A stretch of DNA of 40,476 bases. It comes from a bacterium. GTDB taxonomy: Bacteria; Armatimonadota; UBA5829. The position numbers were made by a program, and so were the translations under genes. How positions within the stretch are numbered: position 1 is the first letter of the stretch; the number at the start of each line of letters is the position of its first letter. Positions 1,317-39,487 of this stretch are shown piece by piece. The notes under the pieces were generated by a model that worked only from the letters and a program-made list of their open reading frames with translations, had not been told where the DNA came from and did no database searches. The stretch is taken from positions 1 through 40,476 of the forward strand of contig JAJFTD010000028.1 in the NCBI GenBank assembly GCA_021373255.1, written 5' to 3'.

Positions 1317-2597
1317 ATGGCAAGACCAGGGTGCGTTATCTCGCTCTCGATCTTACTTCTCATGCCTTGTTTATCAATTACTGCTGATGAGGTCAAGCAG
1401 CCGAAAGCGTATTCGTTGCAGGATTGTATCTCTGTGGCGATGCGCAACAATATCGATGTCCTCACCGCTCAGAACAACGTGATTGCAGCAAAGAGCCGTT
1501 CAGCCAGTGCAAAAAGCGAGTATCTGCCGCAGATATCGCTGCAGAACAACGCATTTGTGTGGGGTTCAGAAAGTGTTTTGAACCAATCGACTACAGGAAC
1601 TGCTTTTTCGGTGGACCAGAATATATTCGACGGAGGCCTGCGAGAAGCAAATGCGCAAAGCGCTCGATATGGTGTGACCCAAAACAAATCGGGGCAGACC
1701 CGAACACTGCAGACGGTTACGTATAACGTCAGCAAGGCCTATTATGAAGTTCTGCGCTCACGCCATCTGGCTGAGGTCGCGCAGGCGAATGTTACATATA
1801 ACGAAGGGCTTCGTGACCAGATCCAGGCACGTGCGGATGTGGGTGATGCGGCGAAAGTCGATGTGCTGCCGATAGAGGCGCAGTTGGCCAGCGCTCGCGT
1901 CAGCCTTCTTTCCGCTCAGAACTCGCTTAGGACCTCCGCAATTGAATTGCAGAAAGTTATGGGCGTTCCATCTAAATCCAGCTTTGACGTTCAGGAGATC
2001 AGTGATGCTCCAAAAACTGAGATCGCTTCGCTGGACGATTATATTACAGCGGCGAGCAAGTCTCGTCCTGACATAATGCAAAGCCACGCAGCCACGGGGG
2101 CGGCGCGGGCTTCGGTGAGATCATCAAGAATCGCCCTCTATCCACGCCCGGTAATATCTGCAAACTACCAGCGCCAGATATCAGGAGGATTCACGACGAG
2201 CGGCACTCAGCTCGTCGGCGGCATAGTCTTCAACATATTCAACGGGGGTGCAAACCGCGCCGCTTACAGAGAAGCTCAGGCTAATCGTGCCAATGCCGAG
2301 TTACAGGAACAACAGCTCAGCATAGATATAAACTCCGAGGTGGAAGAGGCGTATCTTAGCTTGACCAACGCCAGAGAGCGTATGACGGCCAGTTCTCTCA
2401 GCCTCCAGGCCGCCGATCGGAATTACCAGGCTCAGAAAGAGAGATACTCTCAGGGGCTGGGCACTACTTTAGACTTGCTTAACGCCGAGGTACAGGTCAT
2501 AACCGCACAAAGTGACGACGTGCAGTCGCGTTATGACTACTACATCGCCGTCACCCAAATAGATTATGTGGTAGGCAAGCAAGGAGGAACATTATGA
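1317..2597 (+). CDS. TolC-type outer membrane efflux protein
   Basis: A 427-residue outer membrane channel subunit of the OEP/TolC family. A signal peptide covers about residues 1-23. The rest shows the family's internally duplicated plan: two copies of a long helical hairpin with short beta strands, each beginning with a motif such as YSLQDCISVAMRNN and rich in Ala/Gln/Ser heptads, ending with TQIDYVVG. TolC trimers form the beta-barrel and periplasmic tunnel through which tripartite pumps export substrate. The start at 1317 has AAGGAG (1301-1306) 10 nt upstream; an in-frame GTG at 1308 is too close to that site. Its stop overlaps the next gene's start (ATGA), so it is translationally coupled to the membrane fusion protein. 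The family call is firm. Confidence 0.92.
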   Translation: MARPGCVISLSILLLMPCLSITADEVKQPKAYSLQDCISVAMRNNIDVLTAQNNVIAAKSRSASAKSEYLPQISLQNNAFVWGSESVLNQSTTGTAFSVDQNIFDGGLREANAQSARYGVTQNKSGQTRTLQTVTYNVSKAYYEVLRSRHLAEVAQANVTYNEGLRDQIQARADVGDAAKVDVLPIEAQLASARVSLLSAQNSLRTSAIELQKVMGVPSKSSFDVQEISDAPKTEIASLDDYITAASKSRPDIMQSHAATGAARASVRSSRIALYPRPVISANYQRQISGGFTTSGTQLVGGIVFNIFNGGANRAAYREAQANRANAELQEQQLSIDINSEVEEAYLSLTNARERMTASSLSLQAADRNYQAQKERYSQGLGTTLDLLNAEVQVITAQSDDVQSRYDYYIAVTQIDYVVGKQGGTL

Positions 2598-4264
2598 AAG
2601 GCAAGAAACCATATCGAAAGTATACGGTCCTGGCCGTAGTTTTGATTTTGATAATCGGCATCTTTGCGGCGCGCGCAAGGCAGTCAGGCAGCAAGCAGCC
2701 GGATGTACAGACTGATGTGGTAAAGCGAGGAATCGTGCTCTCCAGCGTTTCAGGCAATGGTGTGCTGGAGCCGCTCACAACAGTGGAGGTAAAGTCCAAT
2801 GTCGGCGGCCAGGTTGTGAAATTGGCAGTAGACGAGGGCGACATGGTGAAAGCCGGTCAATTGATCGCAAAGATAGACCCCTCGGACTCAATCTCAACTC
2901 TCGAGCAGGCGCAAGCTGATTATTCGAGCACAAAGTCAAAAGTGAACCAGGCTAGGCAGGCGCTGAGCATGCAGCGTCTTCAGACCTCGGCAAATATCAT
3001 AAGTGCTGAACAGGCGCTGGAATCGAGCAGGCAGAAGCTGTCACAGGCTGAACAGCAGGCGGAAGTGCAGCCAAAACTCACAACACAAGCCATAGCCCAG
3101 GCTCAGAGCAGCCTGGATTCGGCTCAGGCAAGTTTGAACCAGACGAAATCAGCCCTGAACCCTCAGAAGTTGGCTTCGGCAAAGGCATCTCTCGACCAGG
3201 CGCAAGCATCGTATAAACAATCTGAAAAGAACCTCAGCCGCCAGCGAGCCCTGCTCGGAAAAGGGTTCGTTGCACAGAGCCAGGTAGACTCAGCCGAGGA
3301 GGCTTTCTCGACAGCCAAGGCTCAGCTTGAGAGTGCGCAGAAAAAGCACGATACGGTAGAAGAAGAGTGCAACGAGGATCTGAAGAACGCCAAGTCCAAA
3401 GTCGCCCAGGCGAAAGCCGCGCTGGAAACTGCTCAGTCAAACAGGATGCAGGACGACTTGAAGCGCAAAGACCTTGCCGCTTCCAGAGCATCTGTAAAAC
3501 AGGCGATGGCGGCACTGGCGTCCACCCGAGCTGCAGCCTATCAGGACCAGATGAAGAGCGAGGACATTCTGCAGTCTCAGGCACAATTGGAAAAGTCCAA
3601 CGCCGCACTGGAGAACGCGCAGACCCAGGTAGGCTACACAACCATCGTAGCGCCGAGGTCCGGTGTGGTGGTCAAAAAATACGTTGAAGAGGGGTCCATA
3701 GTTACCGCAGGCCGCCAAGCAATGGCAGGAAGCGGCTCCGGCGTCACAATCGTCGAGATTGCAGACGTCAGCAAGATGCAGGTCGTGGCGGATGTGGATG
3801 AGACTGATGTGTCCAAGATCACACTCGGCCAGCAGGTTGATGTCAGCATCGATGCATTCCCCGGCGAGCTGTTCCCCGCCAAGGTGATCAAGATTGCCCC
3901 GGAGGCGGAGGTCAATCAGAACGTGACCACAGTCCCGGTCACCGTGGAACTAGAGCAGACCGACTCACGGCTCAAGCCGCAGATGAACGCCACTTGCGAC
4001 TTTGTAATTTCCCGTAAGGAAAACGTAATCTACGTGCCTGTGGAAGCCATTACGGAGACCGATTCCGGCACTGAGGTAACACTAGTCGATCACGAGAAGC
4101 AGGTGGTTCATAAAGTCGAGGTTGGTTTGACAGGTGATGACTACTGCGAGATCGTCAGCGGGCTCAATGTCGGTGAAACGGTTGTCATACCCGATGAAGA
4201 AACGACCACCAGCACCAGCAAAGGTGGACCTGGCGGCGGACCCGGCGGACCGCCGCCGATGTAG
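2594..4264 (+). CDS. MacA-like periplasmic membrane fusion protein (HlyD family)
   Basis: A 556-residue adaptor with one N-terminal membrane segment (about residues 10-26). The lipoyl domain is split: VKSNVGGQVVKLAVDEGDMV near residues 65-90 and its partner TIVAPRSGVVVKKYVEEGS near 350-370. Between them lies an unusually long Ala/Gln/Ser/Lys-rich coiled-coil hairpin of about 250 residues, against roughly 110 in E. coli MacA. Beta-barrel and membrane-proximal domains follow, then a short Gly/Pro tail ending GPGGPPPM. The start overlaps the tolC stop by 4 nt with GGAGG 6 nt upstream. In MacAB-TolC pumps this protein bridges the ABC permease and TolC. The long hairpin implies a longer periplasmic bridge or deeper TolC contact. 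Strong family call; the exported substrate is unknown. Confidence 0.92.
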   Translation: MKGKKPYRKYTVLAVVLILIIGIFAARARQSGSKQPDVQTDVVKRGIVLSSVSGNGVLEPLTTVEVKSNVGGQVVKLAVDEGDMVKAGQLIAKIDPSDSISTLEQAQADYSSTKSKVNQARQALSMQRLQTSANIISAEQALESSRQKLSQAEQQAEVQPKLTTQAIAQAQSSLDSAQASLNQTKSALNPQKLASAKASLDQAQASYKQSEKNLSRQRALLGKGFVAQSQVDSAEEAFSTAKAQLESAQKKHDTVEEECNEDLKNAKSKVAQAKAALETAQSNRMQDDLKRKDLAASRASVKQAMAALASTRAAAYQDQMKSEDILQSQAQLEKSNAALENAQTQVGYTTIVAPRSGVVVKKYVEEGSIVTAGRQAMAGSGSGVTIVEIADVSKMQVVADVDETDVSKITLGQQVDVSIDAFPGELFPAKVIKIAPEAEVNQNVTTVPVTVELEQTDSRLKPQMNATCDFVISRKENVIYVPVEAITETDSGTEVTLVDHEKQVVHKVEVGLTGDDYCEIVSGLNVGETVVIPDEETTTSTSKGGPGGGPGGPPPM

Positions 4265-7697: not shown

Positions 7698-8084
7698 ATC
7701 TACTCAATAAGCTACGTATAGCCAGCCCAGAATACACCTGACCACAGATTCTGGACGCACTCACAAGATGATACCCTACGAGGCTATCGGCCACACCAAG
7801 AAAAGCAAGGTTTTGCGTTGTACGTTGTGAGTTACGAGTTGCGCGTTATGCGTTGTGCTTATCTGGTTTCGTTCACATTGTGCGTCCGATGGTTTCGGGA
7901 AAAGGGTTTCCCGAAACAACTTGCGTTGTCGCTTCGACTTTCTAACCTTTTGACTTTATGACCTTGTGACATTCTAACCTATTTTGTGCTGTCGTGATTA
8001 AAAAGTCTCTCGCCCACGCTAAGTAAACGGCTTTGGGGCTAAGCGTAGTTATCGGGGTATGAATGGTGTGGGAGTAAAGCGGGC
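7698..8084. repeat. Noncoding stretch with degenerate short tandem motifs
   Basis: No convincing gene lies here. Bases 7812-7862 are a degenerate array of GCGTTGTG / GAGTTACGAG / GCGTTATG-like units. A palindrome follows at 7892-7917, then a CTAACCTT-N-TGACTTT unit (7942-7963) that recurs twice elsewhere in the window. The low complexity and lack of coding signal point to a repeat-rich spacer. Confidence 0.5.
7892..7922. repeat. REP-like palindrome, copy 2
   Basis: GTTTCGGGAAA (7892-7902) pairs perfectly with TTTCCCGAAAC (7907-7917) around AGGG. The right arm plus flank (7909-7922) is an exact 14-base inverted match to 654-667. It lies in the spacer between the sigma factor and the LOG-family gene. 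Confidence 0.6.
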
Positions 8085-20050: not shown

Positions 20051-20084
20051 CATGAGAGACCTTATGTGCCTCTCATGCTTTTTT
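20051..20084 (+). terminator. Intrinsic terminator of the GntR-LacI gene
   Basis: CATGAGAG (20051-20058) pairs with CTCTCATG (20070-20077), followed by C and six T (20079-20084). A longer outer stem (20037-20045 with 20087-20095) encloses it and overlaps the stop codon of the convergent gene, so it may act in both directions. Confidence 0.8.
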
Positions 20085-23000
20085 ACAAGCCGAGAATATC
20101 GTTTTGCTCTCTTACTCTGATCTGCGGTATAAGTCCTGACATGGTCTGCTTTGTTGAGCTTATCCCCGTAACGCACGCATAGCTCCAGGCAGAATTCAAT
20201 GTCACTCCAGTAGGAACAACACATTCCAATGCTCCACTGCCGTCGTCAACAGTAAATGTTGTCGGGTTTACGTATCCGAACTTACCCCAGGTTCGCACTA
20301 GAAGACCAATGTTATTGAGCCCTTGCCCCCCAAGTGTCCCCTTCTGACCTGCATCTGTAGACGACACATAGTTCCAATCTCCACCGCCCACACAATCGGC
20401 TCGAATACCCCGTGGTTTTGTCTGAGCACTACCAGTGATGGAGTATATCGATGCCCCAAGAACCTTTTCCCCGTTGGAAACAAGAAGAGTTCCCGCAACA
20501 TCAACCATGGTATTTTGTGTGAATGCGCCCGAAGTCACCTTGATACCGCAGGCGCCGAGCGGATCTTCGACATAGGCGCAGTCGGAAAAGCTCGCGGTAA
20601 CGTCGACTCCACTCAAAACCACAAACGAACCTATTGCTTTTTTCTTTGCTTCGGATACTGATACAGGCGAGCCCAAAGCAATGCCGGCAGTATATACTGT
20701 CGAAGTGCTGCCCGTGCCGTCCATGAACTGCACGCACACCTGCTTCACCCCGCTACCAGATGGCAGAGTCCAGGTTTTCGCAGTGGAATATGCCTCCCAC
20801 TCGCTCCAGGCATAACCGTAGTTCTGAAATTTCATCTGTGTGACGCCAGTTCCGTTGTCAGTCGCCGCAAGCGACAGGCTCACCTCTTGCGATGCTGTAT
20901 AAATCGCCCCGGAGTTAATACTTATGCTGCCAGTAGGCGAGTCATAATCGACAACAATCGTGTCGGAATAAACCTGAGAGATATTGCCCGGATAGTCCTG
21001 ATATCTAGCTGAGACAGTCCTGGTACCTTCATCACTCGCGAGTGTCCATGCCATAGTCGGCTTATAATCCATCCACTCGCTCCACTCGTCGTTATCGTTT
21101 CTCAGTGATACTTTTCGCACACACGTCTCGGCGTCAGTGGCAGGCAGTGACAGTGTCACATGAGAACCTATCGTGTATGCGGCACCCGATTCAATACTGA
21201 TACTGCCCGTAGGTGGATTTGTTGGATCGAACATCTTTGCGATTACACTTTCGCAGCCGCTGTATTCGTCATAAGGTAAAAATGACCACCCAAACGGATA
21301 GTCACTCGACCCAGCGGTATACCCGGTGAAGTTCTGAGTTTTCTCTGGAGTAACCGGAATCCAACCCGGCTGCATTAAAAAGTAACCGTAGTTATCCTTA
21401 ATATATTTGGTGAAGCTCACAAGCCATGCATTGCGAGCGGCGGGAGTGGCGTGGGCAAACGTCGATGAATGATCGGTGCTACTGCTGTAATTATCCAGCT
21501 CAAGACACATCGGTTTGCCTGCCAAGCCTAAATAACTGGGAGGAATATTGTTCCATGAGTCCGCAAGAGTAGGCCAATCTTTGCCTGCCCCATAATAATC
21601 AGTTCCGGCAGGGCACACAAAGTAATCTATAAACTCACTATAATCCCTAAGCCAGTTCATTTGTGAATTGACTTCTACGATAATAAATCGCTTGCCATCA
21701 ATATACGGCGCCTTATATAGCCCATAGTTCTTAGCAAACTTCGACACCATCCGCAGGCTTGGCCCGCCGACACCAGTCACACATCTTCCCTGCCCGAACG
21801 TCCAATGCGGCTGAGCGAAAGATACCTCATTCATTCCTGCATCGATGAATTCTTTAGCCGCATAAATGTAATACATCAGGGCTTCCTGCTTATTGAGATC
21901 AGGCATGCTGGAATCAATTGCCCACCAATTAGTAGTTCTGGAGTTTAGCATCAGATCGTAGTCAAAGAAGTGAGCGATTATCCGCCTGCCGTCAATAGTT
22001 TTGGATTCCATCGGACGCATAGCAGTAGCGCGGGTCCATCGCGCCATCCAGCACCATAACTGGTTGGGTATGGGGGTATTCTCAATGGGCGTCTTAGTTA
22101 TGCACTCCATCAGGAGACCTCCCAACACAGTATTGGGACAGCTTGCATGAGTAGCATCAGCTTGAATTTTTATCTTATTCCAAGCAGCTGGAGTGTACTG
22201 CTTTCCCCAGGTTATCTCAAAGTTCTCCCAGTGCTTTGTCCCTGTATTCTTCATAAACTGGATATTGCGAGGGCCATTAAGTCGCCCCGATACAGGATCA
22301 AAAGTGTCGGCGAAATCCGTATGGAAATGACATCTCATACTTTTTGAAAGATAAGTTTCAATCGGCAGCGGACCATTAAATGATTTGAGGGTAGCATCGG
22401 ACTCCAACGGGATACTGAGGAAGTTCAAAAGATTATTGATGTTATCCATGTTGATAACAACACCCGAGTCCACAGGTGACCCATTGCCTGATATAGATGC
22501 GGACGACACCGAGTTCAAAGTACCATTGTTGATGAGAGTGCTAATCGGGGTGTTTATGTTATAAAATGTGTTGTCGCTCTCGGTGATAGTAATTGAACCG
22601 CCCCACTTGTTTATCCCGCAGATCTCATAACCCGAAGGCGCGAGGCGACTGTTCGCAAAGCACGTGTTTTGGACTGTAATATTGGAATTATTGTTGATTC
22701 CACCGATTCCGATCATACCATTTACACCGCCAAACCCCCAGAAATCACAGCAATTCACAGTGAGGTTCACGGTGATCGCGGCGTTGTTTACAATTATGCC
22801 GCCGGCAAGTATGTCATCACGACCAAGAAAATTGCAGTTGAAAATTGTAGTCGGGCCTGTATTAGTTGAGTTTATTGCAAATGAACATCCGGTTCTCGCG
22901 GCAACCGTCATATCGAATGACACGCCGGATATGGTCGTGTTGCTGCCGGTGATTTTGACTCCCAGCGATGCGCCGCCTACATTTACTCCGATGTTCTTTA

Positions 23001-23319
23001 TGGTATTTCCGCTACCGGTGACGCTGATAACCGCTTCGCTCGATATCGTTTCACCACTTACATATGGCGATTCCCCGGCGGCACCTACCAGCGTGAGGTT
23101 ATTTTTACTAACCAATACTGATTCTTTATACGTCTTGCTATCTGTGATACATATTGTATCGCCAGATGAAGCTTTGGTTATTGCACCTGCAATAGTCTTG
23201 TAGACAGGTCCGTAGGATGTCCCACTACTTTGGTTTACATTGATAACAGCCGCTGTGCTTGGAACCCCAACCGCTATAACCATCACAATGGCCATGAGCC
23301 ACAATTTGCTATAATGCAT
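20083..23319 (-). CDS. Large secreted multidomain protein, tandem paralogue 1 (beta-helix, putative hydrolase, Ig-like, OB-like)
   Basis: A 1078-residue exported protein. The signal peptide ends near residue 24. Residues about 25-290 are a parallel beta-helix with N/S-rich rungs. About 310-690 is an unrecognised Trp/Tyr-rich domain, with WCWMARWTRATAMRP, RRIIAHFFDYD, FIDAGMNEVSFAQP, CLELDNYSSSTDH and WSFLPYDEYSGCES; its size and motifs suggest a TIM-barrel-like hydrolase, but no known family is assigned. About 695-890 holds two Ig-like repeats, each beginning GSISI and containing a W-S-E-W strand. The last ~170 residues are a two-part OB-like domain ending NDILGL. GGAGAA precedes the ATG, 26 nt after the upstream paralogue, so the two form an operon. 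Probably secreted polysaccharide-active; the substrate is unknown. Confidence 0.75.
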   Translation of the reverse strand: MHYSKLWLMAIVMVIAVGVPSTAAVINVNQSSGTSYGPVYKTIAGAITKASSGDTICITDSKTYKESVLVSKNNLTLVGAAGESPYVSGETISSEAVISVTGSGNTIKNIGVNVGGASLGVKITGSNTTISGVSFDMTVAARTGCSFAINSTNTGPTTIFNCNFLGRDDILAGGIIVNNAAITVNLTVNCCDFWGFGGVNGMIGIGGINNNSNITVQNTCFANSRLAPSGYEICGINKWGGSITITESDNTFYNINTPISTLINNGTLNSVSSASISGNGSPVDSGVVINMDNINNLLNFLSIPLESDATLKSFNGPLPIETYLSKSMRCHFHTDFADTFDPVSGRLNGPRNIQFMKNTGTKHWENFEITWGKQYTPAAWNKIKIQADATHASCPNTVLGGLLMECITKTPIENTPIPNQLWCWMARWTRATAMRPMESKTIDGRRIIAHFFDYDLMLNSRTTNWWAIDSSMPDLNKQEALMYYIYAAKEFIDAGMNEVSFAQPHWTFGQGRCVTGVGGPSLRMVSKFAKNYGLYKAPYIDGKRFIIVEVNSQMNWLRDYSEFIDYFVCPAGTDYYGAGKDWPTLADSWNNIPPSYLGLAGKPMCLELDNYSSSTDHSSTFAHATPAARNAWLVSFTKYIKDNYGYFLMQPGWIPVTPEKTQNFTGYTAGSSDYPFGWSFLPYDEYSGCESVIAKMFDPTNPPTGSISIESGAAYTIGSHVTLSLPATDAETCVRKVSLRNDNDEWSEWMDYKPTMAWTLASDEGTRTVSARYQDYPGNISQVYSDTIVVDYDSPTGSISINSGAIYTASQEVSLSLAATDNGTGVTQMKFQNYGYAWSEWEAYSTAKTWTLPSGSGVKQVCVQFMDGTGSTSTVYTAGIALGSPVSVSEAKKKAIGSFVVLSGVDVTASFSDCAYVEDPLGACGIKVTSGAFTQNTMVDVAGTLLVSNGEKVLGASIYSITGSAQTKPRGIRADCVGGGDWNYVSSTDAGQKGTLGGQGLNNIGLLVRTWGKFGYVNPTTFTVDDGSGALECVVPTGVTLNSAWSYACVTGISSTKQTMSGLIPQIRVREQNDILGL
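20905..21237. repeat. Near-identical tract shared with 24168-24500 (copy 1)
   Basis: This 333-bp stretch, encoding most of the first Ig-like repeat, aligns without gaps to 24168-24500 with 22 mismatches counted by hand (about 93% identity). The flanking parts of the two genes are clearly more divergent, which suggests gene conversion or recent exchange. Confidence 0.7.
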
Positions 23320-23345: not shown

Positions 23346-26300
23346 CTAGAACGCCACTATGTCGTCTTGCTGTCTCACCCTAAGCTGTGGCATAAGTCCC
23401 GAGGTGGTCTGTTTGGTGGAGCTTATTCCAGTCACACCCACATAGTTCCAGCTCTGATTCAGCGTAACTTGTGATGGAACAACACACTCCAGCGTGCCGC
23501 TGCCGTCATTTACTGTGAATGTCGTGGGGTTGACATAAGCAAACTTCCCCCACACCCTTACCAGCAGGCCGATGTTGTTGAGCCCCAGCCCGTCAACCGT
23601 CTTCATCTGCCCGGCATCTGTGACTGCGTCGTAATACCAGTCTCCGCCGCCTATACAACCGGGCCTGATACCCAGCGGCTTCACCAGGGCACTGCCTGTC
23701 GCTGAGTGGATGGATGCCTGCAAGGCTTTCTCTCCATTGGATACAAACAGCATACCTGCAATGTCGGCGAGAACTCCCTGGGAAAGTGTGCTGTCAGTTA
23801 CCTTGATTCCGGTGTTGCCCATCATGTCCTCAATGTAGGCACAGTCAGAAAAACCGGCAGTGACAGCCACTCTACTTAATATCACAAATGATCCGGCAGG
23901 CTGTTTCTTAGCATCAGCCAAAGATATAGGCGAACCAACAGCTATGGTGTCGCTATATGCAGCAGAGATGTTGCCGGCGCCGTCCATATACTGCACGCAC
24001 ACCTCTTTCACTCCACCGCCGGTCGGTAATGTCCATGTTTTCGTAGTAGCAAACGGCTCCCAGTCGCTCCAAGCATAGCCGTAGTTCTGCAGCCTCATCT
24101 GCGTCACTCCCACCCCGCTGTCAATCGCGGAAAGTGTGAGAGTGACCGATCCCGATTCCGTATACACCGCCCCGGAGTTAATACTTATGCTGCCGGTAGG
24201 CGAGCCATAATCAACAACAATCGTGTCGGAATAAACCTGAGATATATTGCCCGGATAGTCCTGATATCTAACTGAGACAGTCCTGGTACCTTCATCACTC
24301 GCGAGTGTCCATGCCATAGTCGGCTTATAGTCCGTCCACTCGCCCCACTCGCCGTCATCGTTTCTCAGAGACATTTTTCGCACGCATGTCTCGGCGTCAG
24401 TGGCGGGCAATGATAGTGTCACATGAGAACCTATCGTGTATGCGGCATTCGATTCAATACTGATACTGCCCGCAGGCGGATTTGTTGGATCGAACATCTT
24501 GGATATAGTGCTTTCGCAGCCGCTGTATATATCGTAAGGTAAAAACTCCCATCCCCATGGATAGGTGAACAGAGCGGATGTATATCCGGTGAAATCCTGA
24601 CAACCCGACGGAGTAATCGGAATAGATCCGGGCTGCATCAAGTAATAACCGTAGTTATTCTTTATGTAGTTAGTGAACTCCACCAGCCAGGCGTTTCGTT
24701 CAGCCGGTGTTGTGCGGGCAAATACAGAGGGGTGATCGTTCTCGCTGTCGCTGTTGTCCAGTTCAAGACACATTGGCTTACCGGGCAGGAAGAGGTTGCT
24801 GGCAGGAATGTGGTTCCATGAATCCGCAAGTGTATTCCAGCCGTAACCACATCCATTTGAGTAAGTTCCGGCTGGATTGGTAACATAGTCCACGAAGTTG
24901 CAGTAGTTACTGAGCCCGGTGACAACGGCCTCGGCATTGGTTATCACAAACCGTTTTCCGTCTATCATCGGCGCGCGGTATAGCCCATAATTCTTGGCAA
25001 ACTTCGAGATCATTTGCAGATTGGTCCCACCATATCCGCTCTGGATCGATGCCTGGCCGAAGGTCAATTGAGGTTGGCTGAAAGCTATCTGGTTCATGCC
25101 TGCATCTATGTATGACTTGTCCAGGAACAGATAATACATCAGCCCTTCCTGTTTATTCGGATTAGGGCAACTGGTGTCTGTACTCCAATGGTCTACACCC
25201 CATCCCAGCATCATGTCATAGTCAAAAAAGTGAGCGATTATCCGCCTGCCACCAATCGTTTTAACCTCCAGCGGACGCATCGCAGTCGCCCGAGTCCATC
25301 TCGCCATCCAACACCATAGTGCTGTCGGTATGGAGGTGTTTTCAATCGCAGACTTGTTGATGCATTCCATCAGGTTACCGGCACATACTACGTTGGGAGA
25401 CATGCCGTGCAGATCCTGGATATGAGTCTTTATCCTCTGAAAATCAGCCGGATTATATTGCCTCCCCCACGAAATCTCATATCTGTTCCAAAGCCTTGCA
25501 CCCATATTCACTATAGCCTGGTGAGCGCGCGGCCCATCTTTGAGGCCAGTAACAGGGTCAATAGACTCATAATTACTATCAACACCAATCCACCACACAG
25601 CTTTGGACAAGTAATCGCCAATGGGTTTAGGCCCGGTATATGGCTGCAGAGTGCTGTCGGATTCCAACGGAACACCGAAATAATTCAAAAGATTGTTGAT
25701 GTTGCTCATGCTGATAACAGCATTCGAGTTCGCAGGCATGCCATTGCCCGATACGGCAGCGGAAGATATAGAATTGATAACGCCATTATTTACCAGACTG
25801 CCCAGGGGAGTGTTGATGTTGTAGAAGGTGTTATCTCTCTCCGTAATGGATATTGAGCCGTTCCATTTATTTATCGCTACGATCTCATATCCCGACGGCG
25901 CATAACGTCCGTTTGCAAAGCAGCTATTGCTGATCTGGATGCTGGAATTGCTGTCTATCCCGCCAATCCCGATCATTCCCCCGTCTGCCCCGAACCCCCA
26001 GAAATCACACTGATCCACAGCCAGATCCACCGCTGCCGACGCACTGTTCACAATTATCCCACCTGCAAGCACAGCGTCGCTGCCAAGGAAGTTACAGGCG
26101 ATAATCTTCGTCGGGCCTGCGCAGGAGGTCTCTATTGCATATGTATTTGAACTCCTCGCAGCGGTTGTAACATCGAATGAGCAATCCGTAATTGTTACGC
26201 CATTACCGGCAATCCCTACACCACATCGAACACCACCGATGTTAAATGACAGATTCCTAAGAGTTACATTCCTCCCGAAAACAAACAGAAGAGTATTACT

Positions 26301-26579
26301 ACCGAAGAGAGACCCTCCATATATATTGGGCGACTCACCAGCGGCACCTTCCAGGATGAAGTCGTTCTTGTTGATTGTCAGCAGCTCACTGTAGTTCTGG
26401 CTGTCGGTGATGCATACGGTATCTCCATCGGACGCGTGGTTAATAGCTCCATTGATGGTGTTATATATCGGGCCACGTGGACTGCCCGTCGATTTGTTTA
26501 CTTTAATAACAGCCGCCGATGACTGCACACACAGCGCCAGGGTTAGCAGGCTCAAGACAAATGCTCTGCTGATAATCAT
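23346..26579 (-). CDS. Large secreted multidomain protein, tandem paralogue 2
   Basis: A 1077-residue exported protein with the same layout as its downstream neighbour: signal peptide (1-23), beta-helix (about 25-290), the shared unrecognised domain (about 310-690; LWCWMARWTRATAMRP, RRIIAHFFDYD, KPMCLELDNSDS, WEFLPYDIYSGCES), two Ig-like repeats, and a two-part OB-like C-terminus (GLNNIGLLVRVWGK, then FTVNDGSGTLECVV). AAGGAG precedes the ATG. It is the first gene of the pair and diverges from the GH36-like gene at 26853. Conserved acidic residues in the shared domain (Asp-Tyr-Asp in HFFDYD, Glu-Leu-Asp in CLELDN) are candidate active-site residues, by inference only. Confidence 0.75.
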   Translation of the reverse strand: MIISRAFVLSLLTLALCVQSSAAVIKVNKSTGSPRGPIYNTINGAINHASDGDTVCITDSQNYSELLTINKNDFILEGAAGESPNIYGGSLFGSNTLLFVFGRNVTLRNLSFNIGGVRCGVGIAGNGVTITDCSFDVTTAARSSNTYAIETSCAGPTKIIACNFLGSDAVLAGGIIVNSASAAVDLAVDQCDFWGFGADGGMIGIGGIDSNSSIQISNSCFANGRYAPSGYEIVAINKWNGSISITERDNTFYNINTPLGSLVNNGVINSISSAAVSGNGMPANSNAVISMSNINNLLNYFGVPLESDSTLQPYTGPKPIGDYLSKAVWWIGVDSNYESIDPVTGLKDGPRAHQAIVNMGARLWNRYEISWGRQYNPADFQRIKTHIQDLHGMSPNVVCAGNLMECINKSAIENTSIPTALWCWMARWTRATAMRPLEVKTIGGRRIIAHFFDYDMMLGWGVDHWSTDTSCPNPNKQEGLMYYLFLDKSYIDAGMNQIAFSQPQLTFGQASIQSGYGGTNLQMISKFAKNYGLYRAPMIDGKRFVITNAEAVVTGLSNYCNFVDYVTNPAGTYSNGCGYGWNTLADSWNHIPASNLFLPGKPMCLELDNSDSENDHPSVFARTTPAERNAWLVEFTNYIKNNYGYYLMQPGSIPITPSGCQDFTGYTSALFTYPWGWEFLPYDIYSGCESTISKMFDPTNPPAGSISIESNAAYTIGSHVTLSLPATDAETCVRKMSLRNDDGEWGEWTDYKPTMAWTLASDEGTRTVSVRYQDYPGNISQVYSDTIVVDYGSPTGSISINSGAVYTESGSVTLTLSAIDSGVGVTQMRLQNYGYAWSDWEPFATTKTWTLPTGGGVKEVCVQYMDGAGNISAAYSDTIAVGSPISLADAKKQPAGSFVILSRVAVTAGFSDCAYIEDMMGNTGIKVTDSTLSQGVLADIAGMLFVSNGEKALQASIHSATGSALVKPLGIRPGCIGGGDWYYDAVTDAGQMKTVDGLGLNNIGLLVRVWGKFAYVNPTTFTVNDGSGTLECVVPSQVTLNQSWNYVGVTGISSTKQTTSGLMPQLRVRQQDDIVAF
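24168..24500. repeat. Near-identical tract shared with 20905-21237 (copy 2)
   Basis: Partner of the 333-bp tract in the downstream paralogue, at a constant offset of 3263 bases. Similarity drops sharply on the higher-identity block's edge near the second Ig-like repeat. Confidence 0.7.
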
Positions 26580-29686: not shown

Positions 29687-29758
29687 GTTGTGAGAGTTTG
29701 TTGCCGAGGACCACATAGCATTGTGCCAGTGAATACCTGCATTTCTTTCCCTCATTCT

Positions 29759-29860
29759 GGTAGTGGCATTATATGACGTGATGGCTCTTCTTTCTGCGAA
29801 GATGAGTGCTGAGCGTAAGCTCACACCCAGCCAACATCACATTATTGACGCTCAGCACCC
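29759..29860. mobile_element. Small structured mobile element, copy A, with direct-repeat flanks
   Basis: A 102-bp intergenic unit about 82% identical, without gaps, to 37559-37660. It is bounded by the direct repeat TCATTCT (29752-29758 and 29861-29867; the match extends to 10 bp as CCCTCATTCT), while copy B is bounded by a different repeat, as expected of target-site duplications. Internal helices: 29778-29786 with 29829-29840 (AAC bulge), 29806-29816 with 29848-29858 (11 bp, perfect), and 29787-29790 with 29798-29801. The first two interleave as a pseudoknot or are alternatives. It encodes no protein and ends 6 bp from the stop of the small symporter partner gene. Confidence 0.7.
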
Positions 29861-29872
29861 TCATTCTCGATC

Positions 29873-37532: not shown

Positions 37533-37558
37533 AATTGACCCCCCGGTTCACGGATTCT

Positions 37559-37660
37559 GGTAGTGGCATTGTATGGCGTGATAGCTTTTCTTCCTGCGAA
37601 GGCGAGTGTTGGGCGTAAGCTCACGCCAGGCTAACATCACGTTATAAACGTCCAACACCC
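37559..37660. mobile_element. Small structured mobile element, copy B, with direct-repeat flanks
   Basis: Partner of 29759-29860. It is flanked by GGATTCT (37552-37558 and 37661-37667; 8 bp as CGGATTCT), which differs from the flank of copy A. Helix 37607-37616/37648-37657 keeps 10 bp with a G-T pair although five of its 20 bases differ from copy A. Helix 37578-37586/37629-37640 is also kept. It lies 26 bp after the ROK gene stop. Confidence 0.7.
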
Positions 37661-37811
37661 GGATTCTTTATAAGACAGCATCCCCTGCTCATCAAGCAGC
37701 TTTCGATTTAGCCCTGAAGCTCGCGTGAAGGTAAACAGCCACAAAAAAATGAATTCATGCTGAAGTATTCCCGCACCTCAGAAGTCTAAACTCAATGAGG
37801 AGGATAACGAA

Positions 37812-39448: not shown

Positions 39449-39487
39449 TACACTCAGCTAACATTAATTCAAGAACACCCAACACCC
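39449..39487. mobile_element. Truncated third copy of the structured element
   Basis: Directly beside the palindrome's last base, ACACTCAGCTAACAT matches copy A (ACACCCAGCCAACAT) at 13 of 15 positions. After a 14-nt spacer of the same length as in copies A and B, CCAACACCCG matches copy B exactly. Everything 5' of the palindrome junction is missing. Confidence 0.5.

Follow-up and report, generated by a model that had tools for sequence, protein, structure and literature searches.

In one contig of an Armatimonadota genome (JAJFTD010000028.1 of assembly GCA_021373255.1), analyzed over its full 40,476 nucleotides (here referred to as the window), two copies of a 101-bp sequence differ from each other at positions that can pair. 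The sequence-only reading that drew attention to them had proposed two interleaved helices maintained by compensatory base changes and, from these, selection on RNA or single-stranded DNA structure. What kind of sequence is this, a structured RNA or a mobile element, and what has kept its strands complementary? Our analysis indicates that the 101-bp element represents a new family of MITEs and that one of its helices is well supported by covariation.

Copies, extent, and host range

Copy A occupies positions 29759 to 29859 (+ strand), starting with GGTAGTGG and ending with CAGCACC, and copy B occupies positions 37559 to 37659 (+). The right half of a third copy survives as a remnant, ACACTCAGCTAACATTAATTCAAGAACACCCAACACC, at 39449 to 39486 (+), and CGTTTTCG follows it; this remnant was found as a match to the right-end pattern with three mismatches. 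Using BLAST, the copy A region had 33 matches in its own 4.19-Mb genome, and a covariance model of the element, trained on 35 copies, recovered 43 homologous matches, very diverged copies included; this one genome carries about 45 copies. Their length is constant at 100 to 102 bp, except where internal deletions or insertions have occurred with both ends retained. Five short deletion forms of 30 to 41 nt exist beyond the 43 covariance model matches (39, 39, 41, and about 30 nt, and another 39-nt form beside a repeated GGTAG), as well as two 179-nt forms with an extra hairpin inserted between intact ends. Target duplications were recognizable in nearly all of these deletion and insertion forms, and left ends were intact in nearly all copies of the element.

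The element lacks protein-coding capacity, with no ORF of at least 90 amino acids in copies A and B, and a tRNA/tmRNA scan detected neither type of gene. Comparison with Rfam models, which the sequence-only reading had recommended, assigned it to no family: nothing in the window reached the gathering threshold, and at a relaxed E value there were only subthreshold matches around the element. It was absent from 40 relatives (BLAST), from 27 other genomes of the class (covariance model), and from 290 other Armatimonadota genomes under stricter, less sensitive filters. Similarly, no match was obtained among plasmids and phages (BLAST), and the core pattern was not found in GTDB genome contigs or IMG/VR viral contigs.

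Some individual copies and neighboring sequences deserve mention. At L018 (2992 to 3200), two copies lie head to tail with the middle 8-bp duplication common to both; their right halves are nearly identical, while the left halves come from different subfamilies, a sequence pattern that suggests recombination or conversion in the middle of the element. The two 179-nt copies (L013, 2924 to 3102, and L014, 2882 to 3060) have an identical insert at an identical position, with the inverted repeat CCCGCATTATTC/GAATAATGCGGG at its end, and this insert had no other occurrence in the genome sequence examined. The window also contains, at 654 to 690 and 7886 to 7922, a second dispersed palindromic repeat family (GTTTCGGGAAACCCTTTTCCCGAAAC), which is found near several copies of the element. 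Elsewhere in the window, adjacent genes at 20083 to 23319 and 23346 to 26579 encode proteins of 1,078 and 1,077 amino acids that are about 62% identical and have signal-like N termini, by sequence an apparent tandem gene duplication, and the aspartokinase is 82 to 84% identical to MAG proteins (two of these MAGs are labeled Armatimonadetes/Armatimonadota).

Target duplications and oriented insertion

Copy A is flanked by identical copies of CTCATTCT at 29751 to 29758 and 29860 to 29867 (+), and copy B by CGGATTCT at 37551 to 37558 and 37660 to 37667 (+). This 8-bp register is unique across copies. Duplications of 8 bp (at least 6 of 8 bases identical) were present at 37 of 39 sites, where the mean flank identity was 0.885 at length 8, versus 0.18 to 0.39 at all other lengths from 3 to 14; left and right flanks matched at 6.8 of 8 positions, compared with 3.6 of 8 when the pairing of flanks was shuffled. 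Perfect 8-bp duplications also surround two very diverged copies (L098 and L099). Most copies have GGT...ACC termini, and the consensus ends form imperfect inverted repeats matching at 15 of 25 positions (shuffle P of about 0.001).

On the top strand of the element, the duplications are rich in T (148 T versus 49 A). T outnumbered A in 32 copies, with the opposite in 3, and insertion is therefore oriented. The target consensus is roughly TTCN[CGNTTTYK]YGA, where the brackets enclose the duplicated bases. We also considered a palindromic arrangement of the target flanks (TTC..GA), which was discarded since its frequency was near the prediction from column composition. The right flanks at L010, L015, L019, and L057 place these copies within a repeated target, TTTTCGCGTTTTCGCGATTAAA, apparently another short repeat of the genome, and near position 2985 of L038, a truncated copy is closely followed downstream by a CIRCE-like element (TTAGCACTC...GAGTGCTAA) of the kind found before chaperonin genes.

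By crude gene calls, the gene adjoining the left end pointed outward, with the element behind it, in 34 of the 45 classified copies, so that copies often stand in gene leaders or promoters. Near the left end, the bottom strand has an outward −10-like hexamer (TACAAT/TATAAT) spotted by eye, and a promoter scan of the copy A region gave one weak match, unrelated to this hexamer. Frequent leader and promoter positions would suit a host regulatory RNA (a leader or an sRNA) distributed over many genes. However, such a leader would be transcribed from the bottom strand, yet the pairing evidence described below favors the top strand. Besides, the target duplications denote insertion, the genes adjoining the copies in the window are unrelated, and the element has no Rfam match and occurs in no congener. 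We consider this explanation very unlikely.

Covariation of helix b

The positions and base changes that had been reported for both helices in copies A and B proved correct. In helix b, the 5′ strand at 29806 to 29816 (+), which also makes up most of the 5′ strand of a local hairpin (P3), pairs with 29848 to 29858 (+), the terminal sequence of the right end of the element. In copy A, GTGCTGAGCGT pairs with ACGCTCAGCAC, and in copy B, GTGTTGGGCGT pairs with ACGTCCAACAC, the differences being C-G to T-A, A-T to G-C, and G-C to G-T. To go beyond two copies, covariation was evaluated in 40 copies (alignment A2, in which helix b corresponds to columns 50 to 60 with 93 to 104) against a null model in which the changes of each column were re-dropped on the same tree in 500 simulations.

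Across the 40 copies, 97.0% of the helix b pairs were standard (399 Watson-Crick cells and 27 G-T, with 6 A-C and 7 other). The summed covariation score was 51.8, versus a maximum of 26.8 in the simulations (reached in 0 of 500), and the five best among 2,926 possible 11-bp stacks all fell on the helix b diagonal. When the top pair (columns 53 and 101) was removed, the score of the remainder was reached in 12 of 500 simulations. The single best pair, taken alone, was not significant, as it was matched by the best pair anywhere in 96 of 500 simulations; the support therefore belongs to the whole helix. Mapped onto the tree, the helix underwent seven double changes, C-G to T-A occurring four times among them, and one G-C to C-G double change is placed in the lineage of two diverged copies.

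Could this pairing reflect nothing but chance plus shared ancestry? The copies are related, some columns vary together by subfamily, and the score of the single best pair is within easy reach of the null model, but neither the summed score nor the concentration of the best registers on one diagonal agrees with this idea, to which we assign next to no probability. We conclude that helix b is genuine and that its covariation exceeds what common descent would produce.

Helix a, hairpin P3, and alternative folds

Helix a is the weaker of the two. In copy A, GTGAT-GGCT (29778 to 29786) pairs with AGCC-AAC-ATCAC (29829 to 29840), and in copy B the pairing is retained through G-C to A-T and T-A to T-G changes. 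Viewed as the inner portion of the inverted repeat (P1), it pairs 29774 to 29782 with 29836 to 29844 (both +), with an inner extension in which GGCT (29783 to 29786, +) pairs with AGCC (29829 to 29832) across a 3-nt bulge; this extension is present in copies A and B, and its pairing differs among subfamilies. Over the 40 copies, helix a was 91.3% paired, with a covariation score reached in 30 of 500 simulations, and columns 20 and 85 had a G-A, A-C, or G-G mismatch in about a quarter of the copies. Thus, the proposal that all differences keep pairing fails for helix a in this larger set; a place for it in the inner portion of the inverted repeat is plausible.

The competing hairpin that had been predicted at 29811 to 29822 (GAGC-GTAA-GCTC) was found in nearly all copies. 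It belongs to P3 (29806 to 29814 paired with 29819 to 29826), closed by a GNRA-type loop at 29815 to 29818 (+) that reads GTAA in most copies and GTGA in three. P3 was 95% paired on the top strand versus 72% on the bottom strand, and it is mutually exclusive with helix b, as both need the 5′ strand of the latter. Another hairpin, P2 (TCTTT..GAAGA, 29789 to 29802, +), appears in the consensus fold, its core being 80% paired by counts. Neither P2, P3, nor the pairing of the outer ends showed significant covariation or an excess of pairing over the null model in the 40 copies.

From the interleaved order of the helices, a pseudoknot or two alternative folds had been suggested. The alternatives that we observe are helix b and the GTAA-capped hairpin. 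A pseudoknot, in which helices a and b would form at once, is topologically possible but uncertain, because the covariation of helix a is weak and another conserved partner can pair with the 5′ strand of helix b.

Fold selection or template switching

Helix b may owe its maintenance to selection for folding as a single strand or, alternatively, to template switching between the two arms during repair. Departures from standard pairs in helix b were biased toward G-T (20) over A-C (5), compared with 80:101 outside the helices (Fisher P = 0.001). This bias points to the top strand pairing as a single strand, although it is confounded by the higher conservation of the left arm of the helix.

Template switching between inverted repeats during DNA replication (quasipalindrome repair) yields compensatory changes and has been published for RNA stems (PMC8794818). 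Two of the 39-nt forms (L049 and L052) fit such events: in each, 23 nt from the left end are joined to 24 nt that match the interior in reverse complement. Their junctions lie at the arms of helix b and at a shared GGCGTGA, and strand switching is the simplest origin for them. Repair of this kind would make perfect pairs, yet G-T pairs persist in helix b of many copies, one-sided intermediates are present at columns 53 and 101, and changes from standard pairs to A-C are rare relative to those to G-T. We regard template switching as a possible, if tentative, source of the compensatory changes; it concerns only the cause of the covariation and is compatible with the element being a MITE. Since template switching is documented and the 39-nt forms fit switching at the helix b arms, we give selection on a fold moderate weight only. 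The original proposal of selection on RNA or single-stranded DNA structure holds insofar as the pattern fits a single-stranded form, while template switching could account for the compensatory changes too.

Nature and movement of the element

Very probably, the element is a nonautonomous MITE-type DNA transposon whose ends are presumably recognized in trans by a transposase, most likely of the DDE type. The observations behind this reading are the repeat family, the 8-bp duplications, the oriented insertion, the covarying helix b, and internal loss with the ends kept; the element is short, noncoding, dispersed in multiple copies, and bounded by imperfect terminal inverted repeats and duplications of fixed length. 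A transposase, probably of the DDE type and cutting with an 8-bp stagger, would recognize the imperfect inverted repeats GGTAGTGGCATT... and ...ACGCCCARCACC in trans and would insert the element in a preferred orientation at sites resembling the target consensus, frequently in gene leaders or promoter regions. On the top strand, the right terminus can pair with the internal copy of its own complement (helix b), in competition with the local GNRA-capped hairpin, and the whole element can also close through end-to-end pairing. A single-stranded RNA or DNA form may matter here, for example through fold-back masking of the right end or, alternatively, by protecting the ends when transcription passes through.

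No autonomous element with the same ends and duplication occurred in the approximately 1.1 Mb examined out of 4.19 Mb, and a search for repeated ORFs gave no autonomous partner. A transposase search covering IS256, IS1595, and ISL3 detected an IS256 fragment only, IS1595 and ISL3 being absent. Against the MITE reading, a passive MITE would not require so conserved an interior, and MITEs do not usually insert in a preferred orientation. We consider it unlikely that transposition requires a folded single strand (RNA or single-stranded DNA) that switches between the GNRA-capped hairpin and the helix masking the right end; if true, this would explain both the covariation and the oriented insertion.

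The structured top strand might, as RNA or single-stranded DNA, itself move or guide movement, as in a SINE-like or single-stranded-DNA-folded element. The conserved core, the GNRA-type loop with its GTAA/GTGA variation, the better pairing of P3 on the top strand, and the oriented T-rich targets would fit, and the genome has one group II-like reverse transcriptase. Target-primed reverse transcription produces duplications of variable length and 5′ truncations. In this element, by contrast, the duplications are fixed at 8 bp and nearly all left ends are intact, as expected from a transposase or integrase, and nothing ties the reverse transcriptase to the element. We judge this origin quite unlikely, and for a retrotransposon proper, suggested by the oriented T-rich target and the single reverse transcriptase, the fixed duplication length likewise led us to a low rating. 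The enzyme is a solo reverse transcriptase of 387 amino acids, group II-like/UG17-like (L145, 1288 to 2451), beside which lies a convergent gene for 267 amino acids (2466 to 3269) with a weak match to a candidate defense family.

Comparison with known systems

REP/GTAG palindromes are associated with RAYT transposases and are not known to leave a target duplication. They resemble the element in having GGTAG at one end, hairpins, and an intergenic location but are palindromes of only 20 to 40 bp (PMC3733652). Folded transcripts and inverted ends are common among bacterial MITEs (PMC2229807; PMC10969869). Those of the Correia/NEMIS, ERIC, RUP, and YPAL families are, like our element, about 100 to 200 bp, noncoding, dispersed, and mostly intergenic, with inverted ends, target duplications, and stable predicted transcript folds (PMC2229807; PMC10969869). 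In contrast to them, the element has an 8-bp rather than a TA-type duplication, is not noticeably A+T rich, inserts in an oriented manner, has a conserved fold in its interior together with an alternative helix that covaries, and occurs in this genome only, among those searched.

MITEAba12 of Acinetobacter is similar in its size (113 bp), 16-bp imperfect inverted repeats, and fixed-length duplications, but these are of 9 bp, and it is A+T rich and has no target sequence trend, whereas the target of our element is clear and oriented (PMC6382973). Mobilization of MITEAba12 by a coresident IS, its parent ISAba12, has been proposed (PMC6382973). No such parent was found for our element in the 1.1 Mb mentioned above. 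Its termini start with GG (GGTGCTGG), which we take to be reminiscent of IS6 ends. The 8-bp duplications are also shared with IS6/IS26-family MITEs, although IS6 ends are short and generally perfect 14-bp repeats (PMC7986276), while those of the element match at 15 of 25 positions, the consensus repeats GGTAGTGGCATTGT and GGTGCTGGGCGTTC being clearly imperfect.

Implications

These results add a MITE family to the Armatimonadota, a phylum for which our literature search gave none. Oriented insertion at an 8-bp target is unusual and can be tested, and the family offers a clean test case for compensatory changes in mobile inverted repeats, where selection on a fold can be set against template-switch repair. 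Covariation programs would call this element a structured RNA, and mobile inverted repeats can therefore mimic noncoding RNA.
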